From contig JAFUIW010000116.1 of NCBI GenBank assembly GCA_017473945.1, positions 1 through 64,000 on the forward strand: a DNA stretch of 64,000 nucleotides, in the 5' to 3' direction. This document shows, in pieces, positions 705-56,155 of this stretch. The number at the start of each line of letters is the position of its first letter. Position 1 is the first letter of the stretch. Origin of the DNA: Methanobrevibacter sp. Lineage in GTDB: Archaea; Methanobacteriota; Methanobacteria; Methanobacteriales; Methanobacteriaceae. The notes beneath the pieces are model-generated. The model was given only the letters and a program-made list of their open reading frames with translations. It was not told where the DNA came from and ran no database searches. Both the position numbers and the translations under genes were made by a program.

Positions 705-897
705 AAAAATCAAGTTTACTTGAAAATTTCCAAAAGATTTATATTACTGACTTAGTAAATATATTAATTACAGCAATAATTGTAAGTATTTTTATAACTT
801 TTGATTTTTGTATGGAACAAAAATCAAGTTTACTTGAAAAATAATGATACTAAAATTATTGTTAATTTGCATGTGATTTTTGTATGGAACAAAAATC
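705..897 (+). repeat. Interleaved repeats and hairpins in the mtrE leader
   Basis: The 300-base gap between mcrA and mtrE contains two repeat families. A 22-bp sequence with a CAAG-TTTA-CTTG core occurs identically at 705-726 and 820-841. A 23-bp hairpin (GATTTTTGT, loop ATGGA, ACAAAAATC) occurs identically at 803-825 and 875-897. Most of this lies in the predicted untranslated leader of the mtr operon, so it could be an RNA regulatory structure or paired protein operators. Confidence 0.75.
738..746 (+). promoter_or_regulatory. Probable TATA box of the mtr operon
   Basis: TTTATATTA preceded by an A-rich BRE-like stretch (CAAAAGA) is a good archaeal TATA element. Transcription from about 25 bases downstream would give an mtr leader of roughly 185 nt. 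A weaker candidate, TTTTATAAC near 789, would give a shorter leader. No mapping data support either choice. Confidence 0.5.
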
Positions 898-954
898 AAA
901 ATTTCACGTTTATTAAATGATCAATTTAATAAAATAATATGGAGGAAAAAAATT

Positions 955-1848
955 ATGGACCCTGTAACATTAGGTGTAGTTGCATTAATGGGTGCAGTTG
1001 CTACTATCGGAGGGGCTGCAGAGGACTTAGAATCTGATATTGGTTCTCAAAGTAACCCTAACTCTCAAGTTCAACTTGCTCCACAGATGGGACATTTACA
1101 CCGTATGATAAACAAGGCGGCTTCTGGTGAACCGGTCGCTTATGGTGTTTGGTGTGGTGTAGCTGGTGCTATTGCATATATTTTAATTTCATTACTTGGT
1201 ATAATTCCTGGATTCCCAGTAATTGCTATTGCAATCGGTGCTGCTGTCGCTGCTTGTGTTCACGCTATTTATACTGTTACATCCCATATGGGAAGGATTG
1301 TAGGTCAATCTCAATTCGAACAACCTTTATTTATGGATGTATTAACTCAGTCTTTAGGACCTATCGTAGGTCACGGATTTATAACTAGTTTTTGTATTGT
1401 TGGAATTTCTTACTTAATGACTATTCCAATTGGTTGGTCTGACCCATTACACGTATTCCCATTACCTCTCTTAGCTATGCTTTGGGGTATTGCTTTAGGA
1501 GCTATCGGTTCCTCAACTGGGGATGTTCACTATGGTGCAGAAAGTGAATATCAAAAATTCGAGTTTGGTGGAGGTACTCCTGTAGCTATTCAAGGGGATA
1601 TCGTTACTAAAGCTCCATTAGGTGCTAAAAACTCTATGGATGTTGTAAACTTCTGTGCTAAATTCGGTGGACCATTAACTGGTTTCTGTTTCGGTCTCGT
1701 TGTATTCTTTAGTTTCTGGAATACAGTTGTATTTGGAATTTACGGCGGTATTGTTGTAGGTATTATAATCGTTATTTTATTAATTATCATGAATGACAGA
1801 TTAGAAGTATTTGCAAGAAATAAATACGGACCATATGAGGAAGAATAA
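955..1848 (+). CDS. mtrE: Tetrahydromethanopterin S-methyltransferase subunit E
   Basis: MtrE is a multi-spanning membrane subunit of the Na+-translocating N5-methyl-H4MPT:coenzyme M methyltransferase. The protein is 297 aa and starts MDPVTLGVVALMG; the ATG at 955 was chosen over an upstream one at 880 because GGAGG stands 8 bases before it and the family begins with this sequence. Several hydrophobic helices follow a hydrophilic segment near residues 20-50. It is the first gene of mtrEDCBAFGH and is followed after 13 bases by mtrD. With MtrC and MtrD it forms the membrane part thought to conduct Na+. Confidence 0.97.
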   Translation: MDPVTLGVVALMGAVATIGGAAEDLESDIGSQSNPNSQVQLAPQMGHLHRMINKAASGEPVAYGVWCGVAGAIAYILISLLGIIPGFPVIAIAIGAAVAACVHAIYTVTSHMGRIVGQSQFEQPLFMDVLTQSLGPIVGHGFITSFCIVGISYLMTIPIGWSDPLHVFPLPLLAMLWGIALGAIGSSTGDVHYGAESEYQKFEFGGGTPVAIQGDIVTKAPLGAKNSMDVVNFCAKFGGPLTGFCFGLVVFFSFWNTVVFGIYGGIVVGIIIVILLIIMNDRLEVFARNKYGPYEEE

Positions 1849-1861
1849 GGAGGTTTCGATT

Positions 1862-2563
1862 ATGGATCCAATTAGTTTAATTTTATTCATCGCAATAGGC
1901 GGTATTATGATTGGTGCTGGTGTGCACTTTATTCCTGTAGGAGGAGCTCCTGCGGCTATGGCAACAGCTACTGGTGTAGGTACTGGTACTGCTATGTTAG
2001 CTGCTGGTGCAGGTTTAACAGGACTTATTACTGCTGCAACTATGTCAGGTGAACCATTTTATGTTGTTGGTATAGGTGGTGCAATAGGTGCTATGATTAT
2101 GATGGGTATTACTATGCTCATTGCTAACTTAATCTATATTTTCGGTGTAGGTATTGTACCTGCAGCATCAAAAGTACCTGTTGACTGGATTACCAAACGT
2201 AACCAAGAAATATATAAAACTCCTGGTACTGAAGGACACGGTGTACCTACTACTTCATACATAAGTGGTCTTATAGGAGGACTTCTTGGTGGTTTCGGTG
2301 GTGGATTAGTATACTACGGTATTTACACTGCTGTGGATGACAGTTTATTAATTGTCGACCCAGCTATCACTGTTGGTTTAGCTGCTATATTAGGTGTAGG
2401 TGTATTCTTTATCAACTCTGTTATTGCTTCATATAACATTGGTGGTACTATTGAAGGTATGCACGACCCTAAATTTAAAAGAATTGGTACTGGAGCATTA
2501 GCTTGTGCTATTGCATCTATCGTACTCGGAATTTTCTGTGTTATTTTAACTGGAGGTATATAA
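1862..2563 (+). CDS. mtrD: Tetrahydromethanopterin S-methyltransferase subunit D
   Basis: MtrD (233 aa) is another polytopic membrane subunit of the methyltransferase, rich in Gly, Ala and Ile with several membrane helices. The start at 1862 (MDPISLILFIAIGG) is preceded by AAGGAGG; an upstream in-frame ATG at 1811 lies inside mtrE and lacks this site. The stop is one base before the mtrC start, consistent with coupled translation. Order and length match the mtr operons of Methanobacteriales. Confidence 0.96.
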   Translation: MDPISLILFIAIGGIMIGAGVHFIPVGGAPAAMATATGVGTGTAMLAAGAGLTGLITAATMSGEPFYVVGIGGAIGAMIMMGITMLIANLIYIFGVGIVPAASKVPVDWITKRNQEIYKTPGTEGHGVPTTSYISGLIGGLLGGFGGGLVYYGIYTAVDDSLLIVDPAITVGLAAILGVGVFFINSVIASYNIGGTIEGMHDPKFKRIGTGALACAIASIVLGIFCVILTGGI

Positions 2564-2564
2564 A

Positions 2565-3380
2565 ATGTCTGCTGGTGGAAGTGCTGACGGTGCAGCTGCA
2601 GGTGCAGTTAACTCAACTCACTTGTTAATTATGGGTATCGTCGGAGGATTACTTTGTATTTATTTATCAGGCTTTTTAGGAGATATCGTTGGTCCAGTAA
2701 TCGCTGCTATCGGTGCAGTTTTAGCAATCGTATGGGGAGCAGATGCTATTCGTAGAGTAGCAAGTTACGGTTTAGGTACTGGTGTACCATCTATTGGTTA
2801 CATGTCTTTATCTGTAGGTGTAATTTCTGCTTTAGCTGGAATTAGTTTAGCTACTATTCTTAACATGACCATTGCAGGACCTGTTCTTGCTTTAGTTATT
2901 GCAATTATTATTGGTGCTATTATTGCATTAATTGCTACTAAAATTGTTGGTATGAAAATCCCTATCATGCTTCAATGTACTATTGAAATTGCTGGCGCTG
3001 CTTGTTTAGCAATTTTCGCATTCTCTACTGCTATTGTAGGCAGTTATGATATGTTAGCAATTTATGAAGGTGTTGTTGCTACTGGATTTATTGCTGTATT
3101 ATTCATTATGTGTACTATGGCTATTCAACACCCATTCAACGCATGTTTAGGACCAAACGAAGATCAAGTCAGAACTTTAAAATGTGCTGCTTCAACCGCA
3201 TTCTTATCCATGACTATTGTAGGTATGTTATCTTCAATTACTGGTGGATTCGGATGGGCTATTGTATTAGTCGTAGGTTTAATCGGTTGGGTTATTTCAT
3301 TCAGAGCATTCGTTCAAGCTTCATGTAATGACGCAGCATCAACAAGATGGGCTGGATTATGGCCTAATGTAGATGAATAG
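2565..3380 (+). CDS. mtrC: Tetrahydromethanopterin S-methyltransferase subunit C
   Basis: MtrC (271 aa) completes the C/D/E membrane part of the methyltransferase. It starts MSAGGSADGAAAGAVNSTH and then has a run of hydrophobic helices to the C-terminus. A GGAGG-like site lies in the end of mtrD (GGAGGTATATAAA just before the ATG). It sits between mtrD and mtrB as expected. Confidence 0.96.
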   Translation: MSAGGSADGAAAGAVNSTHLLIMGIVGGLLCIYLSGFLGDIVGPVIAAIGAVLAIVWGADAIRRVASYGLGTGVPSIGYMSLSVGVISALAGISLATILNMTIAGPVLALVIAIIIGAIIALIATKIVGMKIPIMLQCTIEIAGAACLAIFAFSTAIVGSYDMLAIYEGVVATGFIAVLFIMCTMAIQHPFNACLGPNEDQVRTLKCAASTAFLSMTIVGMLSSITGGFGWAIVLVVGLIGWVISFRAFVQASCNDAASTRWAGLWPNVDE

Positions 3381-3391
3381 GAGGAATAAAT

Positions 3392-3709
3392 ATGGCTCAA
3401 ATGTTACCTATGGTGCAAGTTGTACCTGAAATGAATTATGCATATGACCCAGTAACTGGGATTATTGGTTCATCTTTAGGTTCAGGAGTTGTTCTCCTAT
3501 CTATGGATGAAGTTGGTGAAGAAGTTGCAAAAGTACAAGCAGCTGCTGATGAATTAATGGCTTCATTAGATCCTTATACTAGTCCAGCTGGATCTTACCC
3601 TGGTAGGGAAGGTTCATATGTAACTGCTGGTTTATTAACAAACATGGTTTATGGATTCTTGATTGCTGTATTCGTAATTTTTGCTGCAATATCAATTGGG
3701 GGTATCTAG
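3392..3709 (+). CDS. mtrB: Tetrahydromethanopterin S-methyltransferase subunit B
   Basis: MtrB (105 aa) is a small subunit with a hydrophilic N-terminal part and one C-terminal membrane anchor of about 20 residues (FLIAVFVIFAAISIGGI at the end). AGGAGGAATAAAT precedes the ATG. The mtrA start follows directly after its stop, so translation is probably coupled. Confidence 0.95.
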   Translation: MAQMLPMVQVVPEMNYAYDPVTGIIGSSLGSGVVLLSMDEVGEEVAKVQAAADELMASLDPYTSPAGSYPGREGSYVTAGLLTNMVYGFLIAVFVIFAAISIGGI

Positions 3710-4423
3710 ATGGCTGATAAAAAAGCTCCTGCAGATGGTTGGCCTGTTATCAGTGGGGATTACATTGTAGGTGATCCTGAAAGTCCTGTAGCAGTTACCA
3801 CTTTAGCTTCACACATTGAAGCAGAGTTATCTGGTGCAGCTATCGCAGGTCCATGCAAAACAGAAAATTTAGGTATAGAAAAAGTTGTTGCTAATATCAT
3901 ATCTAACCCTAACATTCGTTTCTTAATTTTGGCTGGTGCAGAAGTGCAAGGACACATTACCGGTCAAAGTTTCATGGCTTTACACGAAAATGGTGCAGAC
4001 CCTGATAAAAAGAAAATTATTGGTGCAACTGGTGCTATTCCTTTCGTAGAAAATGTTCCACTCGACGGTGTTGAAAGATTCCAACAACAATTAGAAATCG
4101 TTGATTTAATTGATACTGAAGATATTGGAGCTATTCAATCAAAGATTAATGAATGTGTAGAAAAAGATCCAGGTGCTTTCGAAGAAGAAGCAATGGTCAT
4201 TTCTGTGGATGACGACGGCGATGATGAAGAAGAAGGAGAAGCAATGAAAGTTGTTTCCGCTGAAACTGCTCTTATTGAAGCAAGAATCAGAAATATCAAT
4301 ACTAAAATTGATATGGTTGGTGCCGTTCAAAGAAATATGGCCGGTAATTATGCAGGTAAAGTTCAAGGCATAATGATAGGTTTAATCTTCACTTTAGTGA
4401 TCGGATTTTTATTCTTGATATAA
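3710..4423 (+). CDS. mtrA: Tetrahydromethanopterin S-methyltransferase corrinoid subunit A
   Basis: MtrA (237 aa) carries the 5-hydroxybenzimidazolyl cobamide that accepts the methyl group from methyl-H4MPT and passes it to coenzyme M; demethylation drives Na+ export. The conserved His in [11 protein letters not shown] (residue 82 here) corresponds to the known cobalt-ligating histidine of the family. A globular cytoplasmic domain fills most of the protein, an acidic linker ([12 protein letters not shown]) lies near residue 165, and one membrane anchor forms the C-terminus. This is the full-length, membrane-anchored form. Confidence 0.97.
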
Positions 4424-4435
4424 GGAGGTATAATT

Positions 4436-4642
4436 ATGGTTCAAATTTCTAATAAACCTAATATTAGCGGAATTAAAAATGCTTCCGAAGATGCAGAATA
4501 CAGTTCAAAACTTATTGCAAGGGAAGGTAAACTTTTCGCTGGTTTACTTGCTACTAGAGTAAAAGGAATTGCTTTTGGTATTGGTATTGCAGTTCTTTTA
4601 GTCGTAATTATTCCTGTGATTGCAATGTTATGTGGATTATAG
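4436..4642 (+). CDS. mtrF: Tetrahydromethanopterin S-methyltransferase subunit F
   Basis: MtrF (68 aa) is a short subunit with a hydrophilic N-terminal half ([20 protein letters not shown]) and a single C-terminal membrane helix. In Methanobacteriales it lies between mtrA and mtrG, as here. AAGGAGG precedes the ATG. Confidence 0.93.
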
Positions 4643-4652
4643 AGGTGTTAAA

Positions 4653-4949
4653 ATGAGTGACGAAAATTCAATACCTCAAGTTATGGTATCTGCAGATGAA
4701 TTCAATGATTTAGCTAAAAAATTGGATGAAGCTGAAGAAAAAGTTGATTTCACTGTGGGTGAATACTATCAACGTCTAGGACAACAATCCGGAAGGGATG
4801 TTGGTATTTTATATGGTATTATAATTGGATTATTTGTATTGATTGTATCCGTTAAATTTGGTGCTATGGCAATTATACAGAATATTATTACAAGTGTTCT
4901 TGCTAGTGCGGTTACAGTAATGCAAACATTAATTGCTAGCTTATTATAA
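4653..4949 (+). CDS. mtrG: Tetrahydromethanopterin S-methyltransferase subunit G
   Basis: MtrG (98 aa) has a charged N-terminal half ([21 protein letters not shown]) and one membrane segment around residues 50-70. The start at 4653 is preceded by AGAGGTGTTAAA. A longer reading from 4620 would run into mtrF and was rejected. It links the membrane complex to the soluble subunit MtrH encoded next. Confidence 0.94.
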
Positions 4950-4963
4950 GGAGGATTATACTT

Positions 4964-5896
4964 ATGTTTAGATTTGATAAAGAACAACTCGTAGTTGATG
5001 TTGCTGGTATGAAAATGGGTGGTCAACCGGGTGAATATCCAACCGTTTTAGCAGGAACAATCTTTTACGGCGGACACAATATTATTAGTGATGAAAAAGA
5101 AGGTATCTTTGATAAAGATGCTGCAGAAGAAAGAATTAAAACAATGGAAGAAATGTCTGATGTAACCGGAAACCCATGTATTGTACAAACTTTCGGTGCT
5201 ACTGCAGAAGCTATGGTTAAATACTTAGAATTTGTAGGAGACATCTGTGACAAACCTTTCCTTATAGATTCAACTGCAGCTGCAGCAAAAATTGCAGGTG
5301 TAGAATATGTACAAGAAGTCGGATTAACTGAAAGGGCTGTATACAACTCTTTAAGTATGGCTGCAGAACCAGCAGAAATTGAAGCAGTTAAAAACTCCGA
5401 CATCGATGCATCCATTCTCTTAGGTTTCAACCCAATGAACCCTGGTGTTGCAGGTAAAATTGAAATCTGGGAAACTGGTGGAGATGTAATCGACCAAGGT
5501 ATTCTTGAAATGGCTGATGAATGTGGAATTACCAAACCATTTATGGATGTAGCAGTAACTCCATTAGGTCAAGGTGCAGGACCAGCTGTAAGAACTTCTT
5601 TCGCTGTAAAATCTAAATGGGGATATCCTGTTGGATCTGGTATTCACAATGTTCCATCCGCATGGGACTGGTTAAGAGGATACAAAAAAGATCACAAAGA
5701 AGCATGGCCTGTTTGTGATATTGGTTCTAACATTGTTCAACAAATGGCTGGTGGTGACTTCGTACTTTTCGGACCAATTGAAAACGCAAGATTAGCATTC
5801 CCTGCTTGTGGTATGGCAGATATTATGATTGCTGAAGCTGCAAAAGAAATTGGTACTGAACCAATTGAAGAACACCCAATCAACAAATTATTATAA
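4964..5896 (+). CDS. mtrH: Tetrahydromethanopterin S-methyltransferase subunit H
   Basis: MtrH (310 aa) is the soluble, TIM-barrel type subunit that transfers the methyl group from N5-methyl-H4MPT to the corrinoid on MtrA. No membrane segment is seen. Conserved stretches include KMGGQPGEYPTVLAGTIFYG and SGIHNVPSAWDWLRGYKK. AAGGAGG precedes the ATG. It ends the operon at a strong hairpin terminator. A second, diverged copy lies at 53733-54671 on the other strand. Confidence 0.97.
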   Translation: MFRFDKEQLVVDVAGMKMGGQPGEYPTVLAGTIFYGGHNIISDEKEGIFDKDAAEERIKTMEEMSDVTGNPCIVQTFGATAEAMVKYLEFVGDICDKPFLIDSTAAAAKIAGVEYVQEVGLTERAVYNSLSMAAEPAEIEAVKNSDIDASILLGFNPMNPGVAGKIEIWETGGDVIDQGILEMADECGITKPFMDVAVTPLGQGAGPAVRTSFAVKSKWGYPVGSGIHNVPSAWDWLRGYKKDHKEAWPVCDIGSNIVQQMAGGDFVLFGPIENARLAFPACGMADIMIAEAAKEIGTEPIEEHPINKLL

Positions 5897-51843: not shown

Positions 51844-52578
51844 ATGATTTCAAAAAATAGTATTAACCATATTGTACATAAACTTCACCTTGATGATTTT
51901 GTTAAATCTCAAAGGGAGTTTTTAAAAGACAATAAAGGAGGATTTTTAATACCCATTGAAGCGAAAGTCACTGATGAGGAATATAAAAGATATCGCAATC
52001 TTCCAATTGACTGGTCACTTTCACCAATAACAAGTGACGACTTGCCAGATGAATTTTCCGAAAAGGCAGTCAAAACAGTGGACATGTTTCGTAGGAAAAC
52101 TCATAATTTAGATATTGAATGTATGATTTACTTTGATATTGAAACGGGAAATATTGTTTCTTGTAATTTTGCAGATAAAAATAAACCTGACGAAGTTTCT
52201 GGTGAGATTTATGCAGATGTTTTAAAAAATATGCATATTTCTTCTGTTCATAATCGTCCAAAGCAGTTTTATTCTCCTCCTTCATGTAAAAATTTTGAGA
52301 TGTTAAGCCTAGATTTTGAGGAATATGAATTAATTTTTTCTCAAAGAGAATTATGGATTTTAGAATCAAAAGAAATGGTAAGTGATGAAAAAATTAAAAA
52401 TATTCGTAAAAATGCTAAGGAGTATTTTGATTTTATTTCAGAAAATACTCACGTTGATTTAGAAAAAAATTATTTAATAATTGATAATATGGATTTTTTA
52501 TATGGAAATTTTTTGTTAGATTATTTAAATAATGATTTTGATAATATTAAATTAACTAGGAGGTATTTGGATGGATAA
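51844..52578 (+). CDS. Unknown protein, possible degenerate JAB-like domain
   Basis: The 244-aa protein is not recognised. Residues 134-175 read SSVHNRPKQFYSPPSCKNFE followed by strands, which resembles the HNHP-x-n-SPPS-D segment of JAB/RadC-type metalloproteins with Arg for the second His and Asn for the Asp. If so, it would be catalytically altered. No signal or membrane segment is seen. It overlaps the next small gene by 8 bases, so the pair is co-translated. Confidence 0.6.
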   Translation: MISKNSINHIVHKLHLDDFVKSQREFLKDNKGGFLIPIEAKVTDEEYKRYRNLPIDWSLSPITSDDLPDEFSEKAVKTVDMFRRKTHNLDIECMIYFDIETGNIVSCNFADKNKPDEVSGEIYADVLKNMHISSVHNRPKQFYSPPSCKNFEMLSLDFEEYELIFSQRELWILESKEMVSDEKIKNIRKNAKEYFDFISENTHVDLEKNYLIIDNMDFLYGNFLLDYLNNDFDNIKLTRRYLDG

Positions 52579-52792
52579 ATATGAGGAATTAGGAGAACCT
52601 ACTAAAGTAATGCGGGATGCAGGTTATAGTAAAATCAAATCTATTTCTCCAAAAAATAAACGGGAAATTCAAGAAAGGATTGAAAATCCTAATATTGTCA
52701 CGGGAAACTATAAACTTAAGGAATTATTTTCCAAAAGAGGCATAACTGTCATTCCTGATAAAATGACAATGTGGTATCAATTTACAGAATAA
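52571..52792 (+). CDS. Small unknown protein co-translated with the 51844 gene
   Basis: The 73-aa charged protein (MDKYEELGEPTKVMRDAGYS at the N-terminus) has a strong AGGAGG in the 3' end of the upstream gene and overlaps it by 8 bases. Size and coupling suggest a partner, for example an antitoxin or immunity protein, but no motif supports this. Confidence 0.6.
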   Translation: MDKYEELGEPTKVMRDAGYSKIKSISPKNKREIQERIENPNIVTGNYKLKELFSKRGITVIPDKMTMWYQFTE

Positions 52793-52822: not shown

Positions 52823-53440
52823 CTAAAAATCTTTCTCATCAAACTCGATTCCGTCTTTAAATTCGATTTTATCGTCTTCAATTCCGACTAAATCTTTAAA
52901 TTCTTTCATCTTAAGTGTTTCTTTTTTGTGTTCTAAAAATCCATAGACTGACTTGTGTCTAGATCCGTTTAAAATCATTTCGAGGGCTTCCTTTGCAATC
53001 ATGATGTTGTCCATTTCACCGATCAATGAAACTGTTTTACCATAAACCGCCATATCCACTTCAGCCATTTCCATGATTATTTCACGTGTTTTTCCATCTT
53101 TTCCTATGATTCTGCCTTTGTATCTTGCAAGGGCCTTTTTGGATTTTCCTATGTATAATGGTAAGCTTAATACTTCCAGATAAATGTCATCGCTGACTAA
53201 TTTTAAAGCAATTTCAGGATTGAATCCACGAGCCACTGCCTTAACGATGTGATTTGCATTCCAGACTCCTAACGGATCTTCCATGTCTTCTCGAGGTGTA
53301 ATGTATACTGTACCGTCATCACTGTCAATGTCTAACATGGTTCCGGTAGCGTTTTCAATGGATTTTTTAACTTTTCCGTTGCTTCCGATTAATGCCCCTA
53401 CTCTGTTTTGAGGTATTTTCAAATAATCTGTTTCCGGCAT
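52823..53440 (-). CDS. KH-domain RNA-binding protein (Pno1/Dim2-like)
   Basis: The 205-aa protein has two KH modules with GxxG loops, VGALIGSNGKVKKSIENATG near residue 14 and GRIIGKDGKTREIIMEMAEV near residue 110. It matches the archaeal Dim2/Pno1-like family, linked in eukaryotes to 18S rRNA 3'-end maturation. It begins MPETDYLKIPQNR. Confidence 0.88.
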   Translation of the reverse strand: MPETDYLKIPQNRVGALIGSNGKVKKSIENATGTMLDIDSDDGTVYITPREDMEDPLGVWNANHIVKAVARGFNPEIALKLVSDDIYLEVLSLPLYIGKSKKALARYKGRIIGKDGKTREIIMEMAEVDMAVYGKTVSLIGEMDNIMIAKEALEMILNGSRHKSVYGFLEHKKETLKMKEFKDLVGIEDDKIEFKDGIEFDEKDF

Positions 53441-53592
53441 TTTATCACCTTTAATTTAATTAGAATTAATAATATTTATTTAATTTTAAATTTTTAAATG
53501 TTTTTGTTAAAAAGAATATTATTAAACATTTAGAATAAGTGAGTATTTAACTTTGCGGTTTTAATGTTGTAAAAAAAAGAATCTTTAATTAT

Positions 53593-53622
53593 AGCACTGG
53601 ACGTGTTTTGGTTTCCAGTGCT
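53593..53622 (-). terminator. Terminator of the second mtrH
   Basis: AGCACTGGA and TCCAGTGCT (53593-53601 and 53614-53622) form a 9-bp stem. On the minus strand the hairpin is followed by a run of eight Ts about 18 bases further on. It lies 110 bases after the mtrH-like stop. Confidence 0.6.
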
Positions 53623-53657
53623 ATTTGGTATTTTGGATTAATGTTTAGATTTGTTTG

Positions 53658-53685
53658 CAATATCCATTTGGTGCTTTGGATATTG
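53658..53685 (-). other. Extra hairpin in the 3' region of the second mtrH
   Basis: CAATATCCA (53658-53666) pairs with TGGATATTG (53677-53685). It sits between the mtrH-like stop and the terminator and is not followed by a T run, so it may be a 3' RNA structure. Confidence 0.45.
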
Positions 53686-53732
53686 AGAACAAATTGATGT
53701 CGAGGTTTGAAAACGGTTTATTTTTGATAAGG

Positions 53733-54671
53733 TTATAACAATTTGTTCATTGGGTGGTAATCAACAGGTTCGGTTCCTAAAGGTTTTGCAGCTTCTGAGA
53801 TGAACATATCTGTTTGAGCTACTGCAGGGAACGCGATTTTTGCGTTTTCAATAGGTCCAAAGAGAACGAAGTCCCCACCACACATTACCTGTACAATGTT
53901 TGCACCGATGTCACAAACGGTAAATGCGGTTTTGTTTCCTTCTTTTTTGTATTCTCTTAACCAGTCCCATGCGGATGGAACGTTGTGAATACCTGATCCT
54001 ACAGGGTATCCCCATTTAGCTTTTTCTGCAAAGGAAGTTCTTGCAGCAATACCTGCACCTTGACCTAAAGGAGTTACTGCTGTGTCCATCATAAATCTAT
54101 CAATTCCACATTCTTCAGCTACTTCAAGTAAACCTTTTTCGTATGCACCGTCATCTCCATCTTCCCACATTGCCATTTTACCTTCAACGGTAGCATTCAT
54201 TGGGTTGAATCCTAAGATGATAGAAGCAGAAATGTCTGTTGCAGCGAGTGCATCCAATTCAGCTTTATCTGCAGCCATGTTGATTGAATTGTAAATAGCT
54301 CTTTCTGTTAATCCTACTTCGTCGGAATATTGTGCACCAGCAACCCTGGCGTCACCTGAAGTTGAATCTATAAGGAACGGAGCGTCACAAATTTCACCAA
54401 TATATTCAATGTATTTTGGAAGTGCTTCTACAGTTTGACCGAAAACTTGAACAATGTATGGGTTACCGGTTACATCGGAAATGGAAGCCATATCATTAAC
54501 TAGTTGTTCGGCTTTTGCTTTGTCGAAGTCTCCTGTTAATTCATCGTTAAGAATGTTGTGTCCACCGTAGAAAATAGTTCCTGCTAGTACAGTAGGGTAT
54601 TCTCCAGGTTGTCCACCCATTTTGACTCCTGCGAAGTCAAAAACTTCTTGTTCTTTATCAAATTTAAACAT
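53733..54671 (-). CDS. Solitary MtrH paralogue
   Basis: The 312-aa protein is homologous over its full length to the mtrH product at 4964-5896, by eye about 60 percent identical, with conserved FKFDKEQ, KMGGQPGEYPTVLAGTIFYG and SGIHNVPSAWDWLREYKK. The methyl-tetrahydropterin-binding barrel appears intact. No other mtr gene or corrinoid protein is adjacent. It may be an alternative MtrH, or a methyltransferase using another methyl donor, as proposed for stand-alone MtrH homologues elsewhere. Confidence 0.9.
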   Translation of the reverse strand: MFKFDKEQEVFDFAGVKMGGQPGEYPTVLAGTIFYGGHNILNDELTGDFDKAKAEQLVNDMASISDVTGNPYIVQVFGQTVEALPKYIEYIGEICDAPFLIDSTSGDARVAGAQYSDEVGLTERAIYNSINMAADKAELDALAATDISASIILGFNPMNATVEGKMAMWEDGDDGAYEKGLLEVAEECGIDRFMMDTAVTPLGQGAGIAARTSFAEKAKWGYPVGSGIHNVPSAWDWLREYKKEGNKTAFTVCDIGANIVQVMCGGDFVLFGPIENAKIAFPAVAQTDMFISEAAKPLGTEPVDYHPMNKLL

Positions 54672-55213
54672 TTAAATAAACCTCTATATTTTTCGACTTA
54701 ACTTTTCAATTTTATTTTATAAAAAATTAAAGCTAAGTCTATAAAAGTTCTTTTTTTAATTATATATAAATTTATCTATACAATTCACTAATTTATAATA
54801 TATTTTTAATAATACTGTTTAATTTTTAAAATAATAATTTTATAGTTTTTAAATAAAGAAAAATTTATTTTAAATCAATATCTATTGAAAAAAAGTAATA
54901 TTCTTTTTATATTCATGAATTGCTTTTGAAAAACTCAATTGATTTTATTAATCATTATTAATCATGATTGTCTAATTATATTTAAAATTTGATTAGATAT
55001 TTGTGAAATATGAATTTTAATATTGTTTTAAGGGTTATAACTAATTTTAATTGATAAAATTATTTGTTTTATCATGTCAAAATAATTATTTTTAAAAATA
55101 AAAGTCAAATATTTGTTAAAAATATATTACAAAAATGAATGTCATGAAGATGGCAATTATTTAGTAAAGTTTGTCAACAAATTGATTTTCATTGGCATGA
55201 AGAATATTTGCCA
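54672..55213 (-). other. AT-rich intergenic region with mtrH2 promoter
   Basis: This 542-base gap holds no ORF or RNA gene. On the minus strand a TATA-like TTTATATATA (54761-54770) stands about 90 bases before the mtrH paralogue start. Near the other end, GATGGCAA (about 55147-55154) and TTGCCATC (about 55208-55215) form an inverted repeat next to the stop of the transporter gene and may act in its termination. Confidence 0.45.
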
Positions 55214-56155
55214 TCATGATTGATATTTTCTGAATGCATAGGCAAGAATTGATCCTGCAAAATTCTGCCAGACGGAATAGAGTGCTCCCGGAACTGTTGC
55301 CTGGGATAAGTTTGGAAAATGGGTTTTTGCAAGGCTGGTTGACAAGCCTGAATTTTGAAATGCCAGTTCGATAGCTACTGTAATTATCTGTTTTCTGTCC
55401 ATTCCTGCAAGGTGGCCAATTCCAAATCCAATTAACATTGAAATGAAATATTGTAAGATGATAATTATGAGTATTACAGTGGATGAAGTTAAAATGGCCT
55501 GTTTATTTGTACCGATTACTCCTGCAACTATTAAACAAACTACAATGGATGATACTGTAGGCAAATAGACTTTTAATTTTTCACAAAAGTCAGGGAATTT
55601 GTAATTCAGGATTAAACCTAAAATAATCGGAACAATCACTATTTGTACAATTGAAATGAACATATCAACCGGATTGAAATGAATTTGATTGCCTATTAAG
55701 AGTAATGTGATTATTGGGGTTAATATGGGTGAAATCACGGTGGAGACTGCAGTCAAAGAAACGGACAGGGCAACGTCTCCTTTTGCAATAAAAGTAATGA
55801 CATCAGATGCGGTTCCTCCGGGCACTGTTCCAACAAGAATGAGGCCGACTGTCAAAGCAGTATCAAGAGAAAAAGCGCTTGCAAGAGCAAATGCTATAAT
55901 GGGCATTATTATATACTGTGATGAAATTCCAACTGATATTACTTTAGGATTTTTGAACACGTTAATGAAATCGTCCACTTTCAAGGTGGTTCCCATTGTA
56001 AAAAGAACAATGCTTAAAAGTAAATTGATAATGTTGATGCCATTATATTCACTTAAAACCCATTTAAATGAATTTGGATAAACTAATGAAATGGCAACAG
56101 CCACCAAAATCACTATAAAAAAATATTTTTCGATAAATTCAAAAATCCTTTTCAT
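55214..56155 (-). CDS. Bile acid:sodium symporter family transporter
   Basis: The 313-aa protein has about nine membrane helices and fits the BASS/SBF fold: GTVPGGTASDVITFIAKGDV near residue 110 corresponds to a conserved Na+-site helix break, and VAIELAFQNSGLSTSLA near residue 265 to the second. Family members import bile acids, pantoate, pyruvate or other organic anions with Na+. The substrate here is unknown. Confidence 0.88.
   Translation of the reverse strand: MKRIFEFIEKYFFIVILVAVAISLVYPNSFKWVLSEYNGINIINLLLSIVLFTMGTTLKVDDFINVFKNPKVISVGISSQYIIMPIIAFALASAFSLDTALTVGLILVGTVPGGTASDVITFIAKGDVALSVSLTAVSTVISPILTPIITLLLIGNQIHFNPVDMFISIVQIVIVPIILGLILNYKFPDFCEKLKVYLPTVSSIVVCLIVAGVIGTNKQAILTSSTVILIIIILQYFISMLIGFGIGHLAGMDRKQIITVAIELAFQNSGLSTSLAKTHFPNLSQATVPGALYSVWQNFAGSILAYAFRKYQS

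Follow-up and report, generated by a model that had tools for sequence, protein, structure and literature searches.

Why would a methanogen keep a second gene for MtrH far from the operon that encodes the rest of the Mtr complex? In hydrogenotrophic methanogenesis by the main methane makers of the rumen and gut, Mtr catalyzes the step that pumps sodium and conserves energy. In a 64,000-nucleotide stretch of DNA from Methanobrevibacter sp. (assembly GCA_017473945.1, contig JAFUIW010000116.1, positions 1 to 64,000; hereafter the window), the mtr operon, in the order mtrE, D, C, B, A, F, G, H, occupies positions 880-5896, and a solitary second mtrH, which we call mtrH2, lies about 48 kb away at 53733-54671. 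The initial annotation of the window had described a full-length MtrH paralogue with its own promoter-like and terminator-like elements and no corrinoid protein beside it. It had proposed that this gene either feeds in methyl groups from another donor or allows the MtrH subunit to be swapped, unless it proved to be a recent redundant duplicate without conservation in relatives. We favor the swap. Our proposal, to which we assign a probability of about 0.64, is that MtrH2 is an alternative subunit of the same Mtr complex and that the 3' untranslated region (3'UTR) of its mRNA silences translation of the operon copy, mtrH1, so that one MtrH would replace the other.

The open reading frame (ORF) and the profile matches bear out the full-length paralogue. 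The mtrH2 protein shares 67% identity with operon MtrH1, covers the full Pfam MtrH profile (PF02007) with 452 bits, and passes the TIGR01114 mtrH equivalog cut-off of 271.4 with a score of 484.7 bits. The MtgA model NF047990 gives 214.4 bits, far under its cut-off of 550. A comparison of active-site residues, one of the checks suggested by the initial annotation, found both the catalytic and the MtrB-contact residues intact. The pterin-site residues, taken like the MtrB contacts from the M. mazei structure (PMC12774963), are all identical: T32, Q75, D103 (or D102), N129 (or N128), D196, H229, and N230. MtrB-contact residues D5 and R211 are both kept, and the exit patch R239/K242/K243 (M. mazei numbering) is identical as well. 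Judged by its predicted product, mtrH2 encodes a complete, conserved MtrH. It resembles a standard MtrH (TIGR01114, PF02007) in sequence, length, and active-site and MtrB-contact residues; whereas standard mtrH is the last gene of mtrEDCBAFGH, mtrH2 is solitary in this genome and has a promoter, a leader, and an antisense 3'UTR of its own. The assembly, 2.36 Mb in size and 93% complete, contains no MtrH genes besides these two, and both lie on this contig.

The 3'UTR of mtrH2 contains a near-invariant segment, CAAATCTAAACATTAATCC, whose reverse complement comprises ATGTTTAGATTTG, the start of operon mtrH, together with GGATTA in the Shine-Dalgarno region of that gene. The operon start region itself reads GGATTA-tactt-ATGTTTAGATTTG. 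A pattern search of the 2.36 Mb genome located the 13-mer ATGTTTAGATTTG at exactly two sites, the operon mtrH start and, in antisense, the mtrH2 3'UTR, and its reversed control at none. A joint fold of the 3'UTR and the operon start predicts 26 intermolecular pairs, with TTGTTC on GAACAA, the 13-mer on the start-codon region, and TAATCC on GGATTA, while hairpin 1 of the 3'UTR is folded in between (Table 1). In two genomes, a covariance model built on the 3'UTR weakly matched the operon mtrH start in antisense, because the 3'UTR segment is the reverse complement of that start.

The region of the start codon and Shine-Dalgarno sequence is the classical site of translational repression. The paired stretch is centered on the operon start codon and reaches the Shine-Dalgarno region, which speaks for repression of this kind. 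In our model, mtrH2 would be transcribed from its own promoter. Its 3'UTR, either within the mRNA or as a released fragment, would then pair with the translation start of operon mtrH, blocking MtrH1 synthesis while production of MtrA-G continues, and MtrH2 would take the place of MtrH1 on the Mtr complex. The pairing might instead be real but work in another direction or for another purpose: the abundant mtr operon mRNA could capture the mtrH2 3'UTR and thereby control the stability of the mtrH2 mRNA, or the two mRNAs could pair so that MtrH2 is made beside nascent Mtr complexes. Complementarity and co-variation suit any base-pairing role, and the leader of the mtrH2 mRNA is structured too, but the position of the duplex on the operon start argues against such variants, which we consider unlikely.

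Comparison with relatives revealed that the motif and the operon start change together. In most relatives, the complementarity spans 10-23 nucleotides (nt). An operon start with TTT-AGA is accompanied by the motif TCTAAA in G000 (the present genome), G036, G060, G097, G055, G083, G040, G054, G041, G017, and G035, and TTA-AGA, which changes Phe2 to Leu, is accompanied by TCTTAA in five of five genomes (G039, G038, G075, G079, and G080). TTT-AGG is matched by CCTAAA in both genomes of another genus (G006 and G009), and TTT-AAA by TTTAAA in G025. Co-variation extends to the non-coding spacer: in G095, the rare spacer TTCGTACTT is met by AAGTACGAA, giving 23 contiguous pairs of which one is G-U, and only two sites in that genome carry this sequence with TTCGTACTT intact. 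Spacer co-variation also occurs in G041 and G075 (16 nt). For genomes in which only the solitary copy is assembled (G058, G078, G081, G087, G094, G053, and G085), the operon start can be predicted from the 3'UTR motif; examples are ATGTTAAGA in G087 and a GTACTT spacer in G094.

The contrast between TTT and TTA starts (10,1 / 0,5) gives a Fisher p of 0.0014 with kinship ignored. Three phylogenetically independent pairs showed the same direction in a mean of 2.7 of 3 over random pairings and never the opposite one, although with just three pairs a sign test cannot attain 0.05. When operon starts were reassigned among 23 genomes, the cognate pairing energy was unbeaten in 20,000 trials, and pairing compared with shuffled 3'UTRs had a mean z of -2.7. 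The 3'UTR fits the operon start better than the start of its own gene in all 21 genomes compared, and the mtrH2 start departs from the match by having AAA in place of AGA at codon 3 or TTC in place of TTT at codon 4. Self-targeting of the mtrH2 start, being the weaker pairing throughout this set, was dropped as a candidate.

Several observations weigh against the proposed silencing. Five of the 13 core nucleotides lie within a predicted intramolecular stem. The interaction energy in this genome is unexceptional, as the operon start ranks second among 63 gene starts and is equalled by 22 of 1197 random ATG windows; we dropped the energy of a duplex or joint fold as proof, since taken by itself it is not decisive here. 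One relative, G066, has a core mismatch, though also a 9-nt match at +18, and the motif is missing in G037, G042, and the g9 genome G031. Close species are non-independent observations, and many solitary copies come without an assembled operon for comparison. An alternative is a redundant or dosage copy of MtrH whose complementarity is a functionless relic: the pairing energies are unremarkable in this genome alone, MtrH2 is a normal MtrH at every residue tested, and an extra mtrH in M. millerae has been reported without any regulation (PMC4987999). A relic, however, would not keep pace with operon-start changes across several lineages and with changes in non-coding spacers, nor would its own start be the poorer match in every one of the 21 genomes, and this explanation appears improbable.

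The history of the paralogues bears on both redundancy and function. MtrH is present in 122 of the 139 genomes of the family, and many genomes of the genus have two or three copies. The tree, a further check that the initial annotation had suggested, splits MtrH into type-1 and type-2 clades, which are consistently distinguished by 14 positions; type 2 has 100% support in the SH-like approximate likelihood ratio test (SH-aLRT). In this genome, operon mtrH1 is type 1 and solitary mtrH2 falls in the type-2 clade. The tree thus indicates that mtrH2 is an old Methanobrevibacter paralogue and not the recent redundant duplicate considered at the outset, as it belongs to a separate clade that is kept across relatives. 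An extra mtrH copy, probably of the same gene family, has already been reported in M. millerae SM9, and many Methanobrevibacter genomes carry it; that report gives only the gene count, with no regulation described and no 3'UTR or antisense element noted (PMC4987999).

Some species have a type-2 MtrH in the operon, for example at loci L070, L073, L075, L081, L083, L087, L104, and L106. Type 2 is the operon gene in genomes G083, G041, G040, G073, G101, and G064, and in the last three of these it is the only MtrH found. Its occurrence as the sole operon MtrH in some species implies that type 2 can act as an Mtr subunit. Where the operon copy is type 2 (G083, G040, and G041), the 3'UTR still tracks the operon copy, indicating that it follows operon position and not paralogue type. 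Type-1 and type-2 mtrH stand in tandem in the mtr operon at L107 and L108, from another genus (g9), and L109 has two type-2 copies. This tandem arrangement may be ancestral, with type 2 later leaving the operon or displacing type 1.

MtrH2 could also act outside the Mtr complex, exchanging methyl groups with another corrinoid protein. Solitary MtrH homologues elsewhere serve other corrinoid proteins (MtgA; mtxH, PMC4632066), and a candidate partner exists in this genome, a soluble second MtrA of 188 amino acids (aa) without a membrane anchor (G000 contig C30:23355-23858; L168:6302-6868, minus strand). Soluble MtrA is widespread in the genus, and its corrinoid domain is nearly identical to that of operon MtrA, which suggests gene conversion. 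Its distribution, however, does not track the second MtrH: it is present where no second MtrH was found (G043, G045, and G098) and was not found in some genomes with a second MtrH (G037, G042, G040, and G083). We dropped the link between the two genes for this lack of co-occurrence, and the 3'UTR of soluble MtrA has no antisense element comparable to that of mtrH2.

Other corrinoid systems offered no partner. Neither MtaB nor a B12-binding_2 (MtaC/MtbC-type) protein was found in this 93%-complete genome, and MtaB is missing too from most genomes of the genus; links of mtrH2 to methanol use and to MtaC-type corrinoid proteins were therefore dropped. No corrinoid protein adjoins mtrH2, as the initial annotation had stated, the neighboring genes encoding an SBF-family transporter, a KH-domain protein, and topoisomerase VI. 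With the first two of these as flanking genes, the locus also lacks the MtxH-type arrangement of an operon with an mtrA homologue and mtxX. Given these absences, the MtgA score (214 against a cut-off of 550), and the type-2 proteins that serve as sole operon MtrH in some species, a role outside Mtr is the least probable of the alternatives we considered. Of the two roles first suggested for the gene, supply from another methyl donor is thus disfavored by the absence of MtaB and B12-binding_2 proteins, whereas the subunit swap gains from the intact residues, the type-2 operon MtrH of other species, and the co-varying antisense 3'UTR.

The promoter-like and terminator-like elements of mtrH2 proved to be real, being kept in differing genomic contexts and with compensatory changes in the leader and terminator hairpins. 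The leader hairpin sits at the very 5' end of the leader, beginning close to where transcription is expected to start; 91% of its alignment cells are paired, five of 10 pairs show changes on both sides, and its covariation score was reached by none of 500 shuffles. Candidate roles for this hairpin (54695-54739) are mRNA stability or a regulator site. In the terminator hairpin, 98% of cells are paired and seven of 10 pairs show compensatory changes. Counted from the ATG, the conserved unit runs from about -440 to about +1080, ending just past the terminator hairpin. Among close relatives, this unit (53570-55115 in the window; counterparts in L068-L103) is found in at least six gene contexts. 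The pattern is as if mtrH2 and its untranslated regions had moved repeatedly as a single-gene unit, and no mobile element was seen near it in the same interval and its counterparts.

An Rfam scan of 53400-55250 gave no match. No regulon sharing the 5' leader or 3'UTR of mtrH2 emerged, as covariance models of these elements returned just the mtrH2 sites and weak matches. A possible operator, ACTGTAYA...TTTAAACAGT, lies 5' of the TATA box in several solitary copies (e.g., L077, L049, and L068), and ATCATGATTAAT repeats occur about 300 bp upstream of solitary copies (54947-54968 in the window). Beside the KH gene, two adjacent plus-strand ORFs (51844-52578 and 52571-52792) have no Pfam match and are not at the corresponding place in relatives L068, L072, and L079.

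Table 1. Positions in the window of the mtr operon, the mtrH2 unit, and neighboring genes.
Feature	Position	Strand	Basis
mtrE, D, C, B, A, F, G of the mtr operon	880..4949	+	
Target: operon mtrH translation start GGAGGATTATACTTATGTTTAGATTTGATAAAGAACAA	4950..4990	+	
mtrH1, MtrH of the mtr operon, 310 aa	4964..5896	+	ORF and profile matches
KH-domain protein, neighbor of mtrH2	52823-53440		
Terminator hairpin AGCACTGGA..TCCAGTGCT	53593..53622	-	covariation
TAATCC, complementary to GGATTA (4953-4958) in the operon mtrH Shine-Dalgarno region	53635..53640	-	sequence, joint fold
Antisense core CAAATCTAAACAT, complementary to operon mtrH start 4964-4976	53641..53653	-	unique 13-mer, co-variation
Hairpin 1 of the mtrH2 3'UTR (ATTTGTT..AACAAAT)	53649..53694	-	fold and alignment
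TTGTTC, upstream arm, complementary to GAACAA of mtrH1 codons 7-8 (4982-4987)	53687..53692	-	joint fold; conserved in most copies
AACCTC in the 3'UTR, near-invariant, complementary to Shine-Dalgarno GAGGTT	53702..53707	-	alignment
mtrH2, second, solitary MtrH, 312 aa	53733..54671	-	ORF and profile matches
Ribosome-binding site GAGGTT of mtrH2	54679..54684	-	near-invariant in 25 copies
5' leader hairpin of mtrH2, GACTTAGC..GTTAAGTC	54695..54739	-	covariation
TATA box TTTATATATA of mtrH2	54761..54770 (about)	-	aligned, conserved among solitary copies
SBF-family transporter, neighbor of mtrH2	55214-56155		

Known RNA switches share parts of this design. In Streptomyces coelicolor, the 3' end of the sodF mRNA (s-SodF) silences sodN through a 19-bp duplex, with decay of the mRNA of the alternative isozyme (PMC9438474). 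The mtrH2 case shares with s-SodF an isozyme mRNA whose 3'UTR is antisense to the 5' region of the alternative mRNA, over 19 bp there and 13 to 23 here, so that expression of one isozyme would turn off the other. For mtrH2, this match to the paralogue start is 13 nt long and unique, and complementarity is maintained by compensatory changes with the exceptions of G066, G037, G042, and G031. The s-SodF case is bacterial and concerns unrelated metal isozymes, whereas the present, proposed one concerns true paralogues of a single membrane-complex subunit in an archaeon. RsaC of Staphylococcus aureus, the 3' end of mntABC, represses sodA (PMC9438474) and is likewise a 3' end-derived RNA that favors an alternative isozyme, but its source is a transporter mRNA and not the alternative isozyme's own mRNA. 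In Methanosarcina mazei, sRNA162, a small RNA (sRNA), masks a ribosome-binding site inside an operon and so produces discordant operon expression (PMC3510493). It resembles the proposed mtrH2 silencer as a methanogen antisense RNA that masks an internal ribosome-binding site, but it is an independent sRNA directed against a regulator of methyltransferase genes, whereas the mtrH2 element is a 3'UTR directed against a paralogue. The open-access literature searched yielded neither an account of MtrH paralogues linked by an antisense 3'UTR nor an archaeal isozyme switch of this kind.

Two genomes, G036 (L080) and G097 (L076), carry third mtrH copies. The 3'UTRs of these copies (AAATTTAAACATT) match the start of the second copy over 12-13 nt and that of the operon copy over 7-8 nt, and in both genomes the 3'UTR of the second copy matches the operon start. 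A tentative and rather doubtful extension of our proposal would be a silencing ladder of Methanobrevibacter MtrH, in which each extra copy carries a 3'UTR antisense to the translation start of the next paralogue down. Such a ladder, if true, would be an RNA-only hierarchy that picks which MtrH sits on the main energy-conserving complex of the cell. If the switch between mtrH2 and the operon copy is itself true, the Mtr complex would exist in at least two forms, the choice between them being made at the RNA level through an exchangeable MtrH. The design of mtrH2 suggests that similar antisense 3'UTRs may occur at other duplicated methanogenesis genes.
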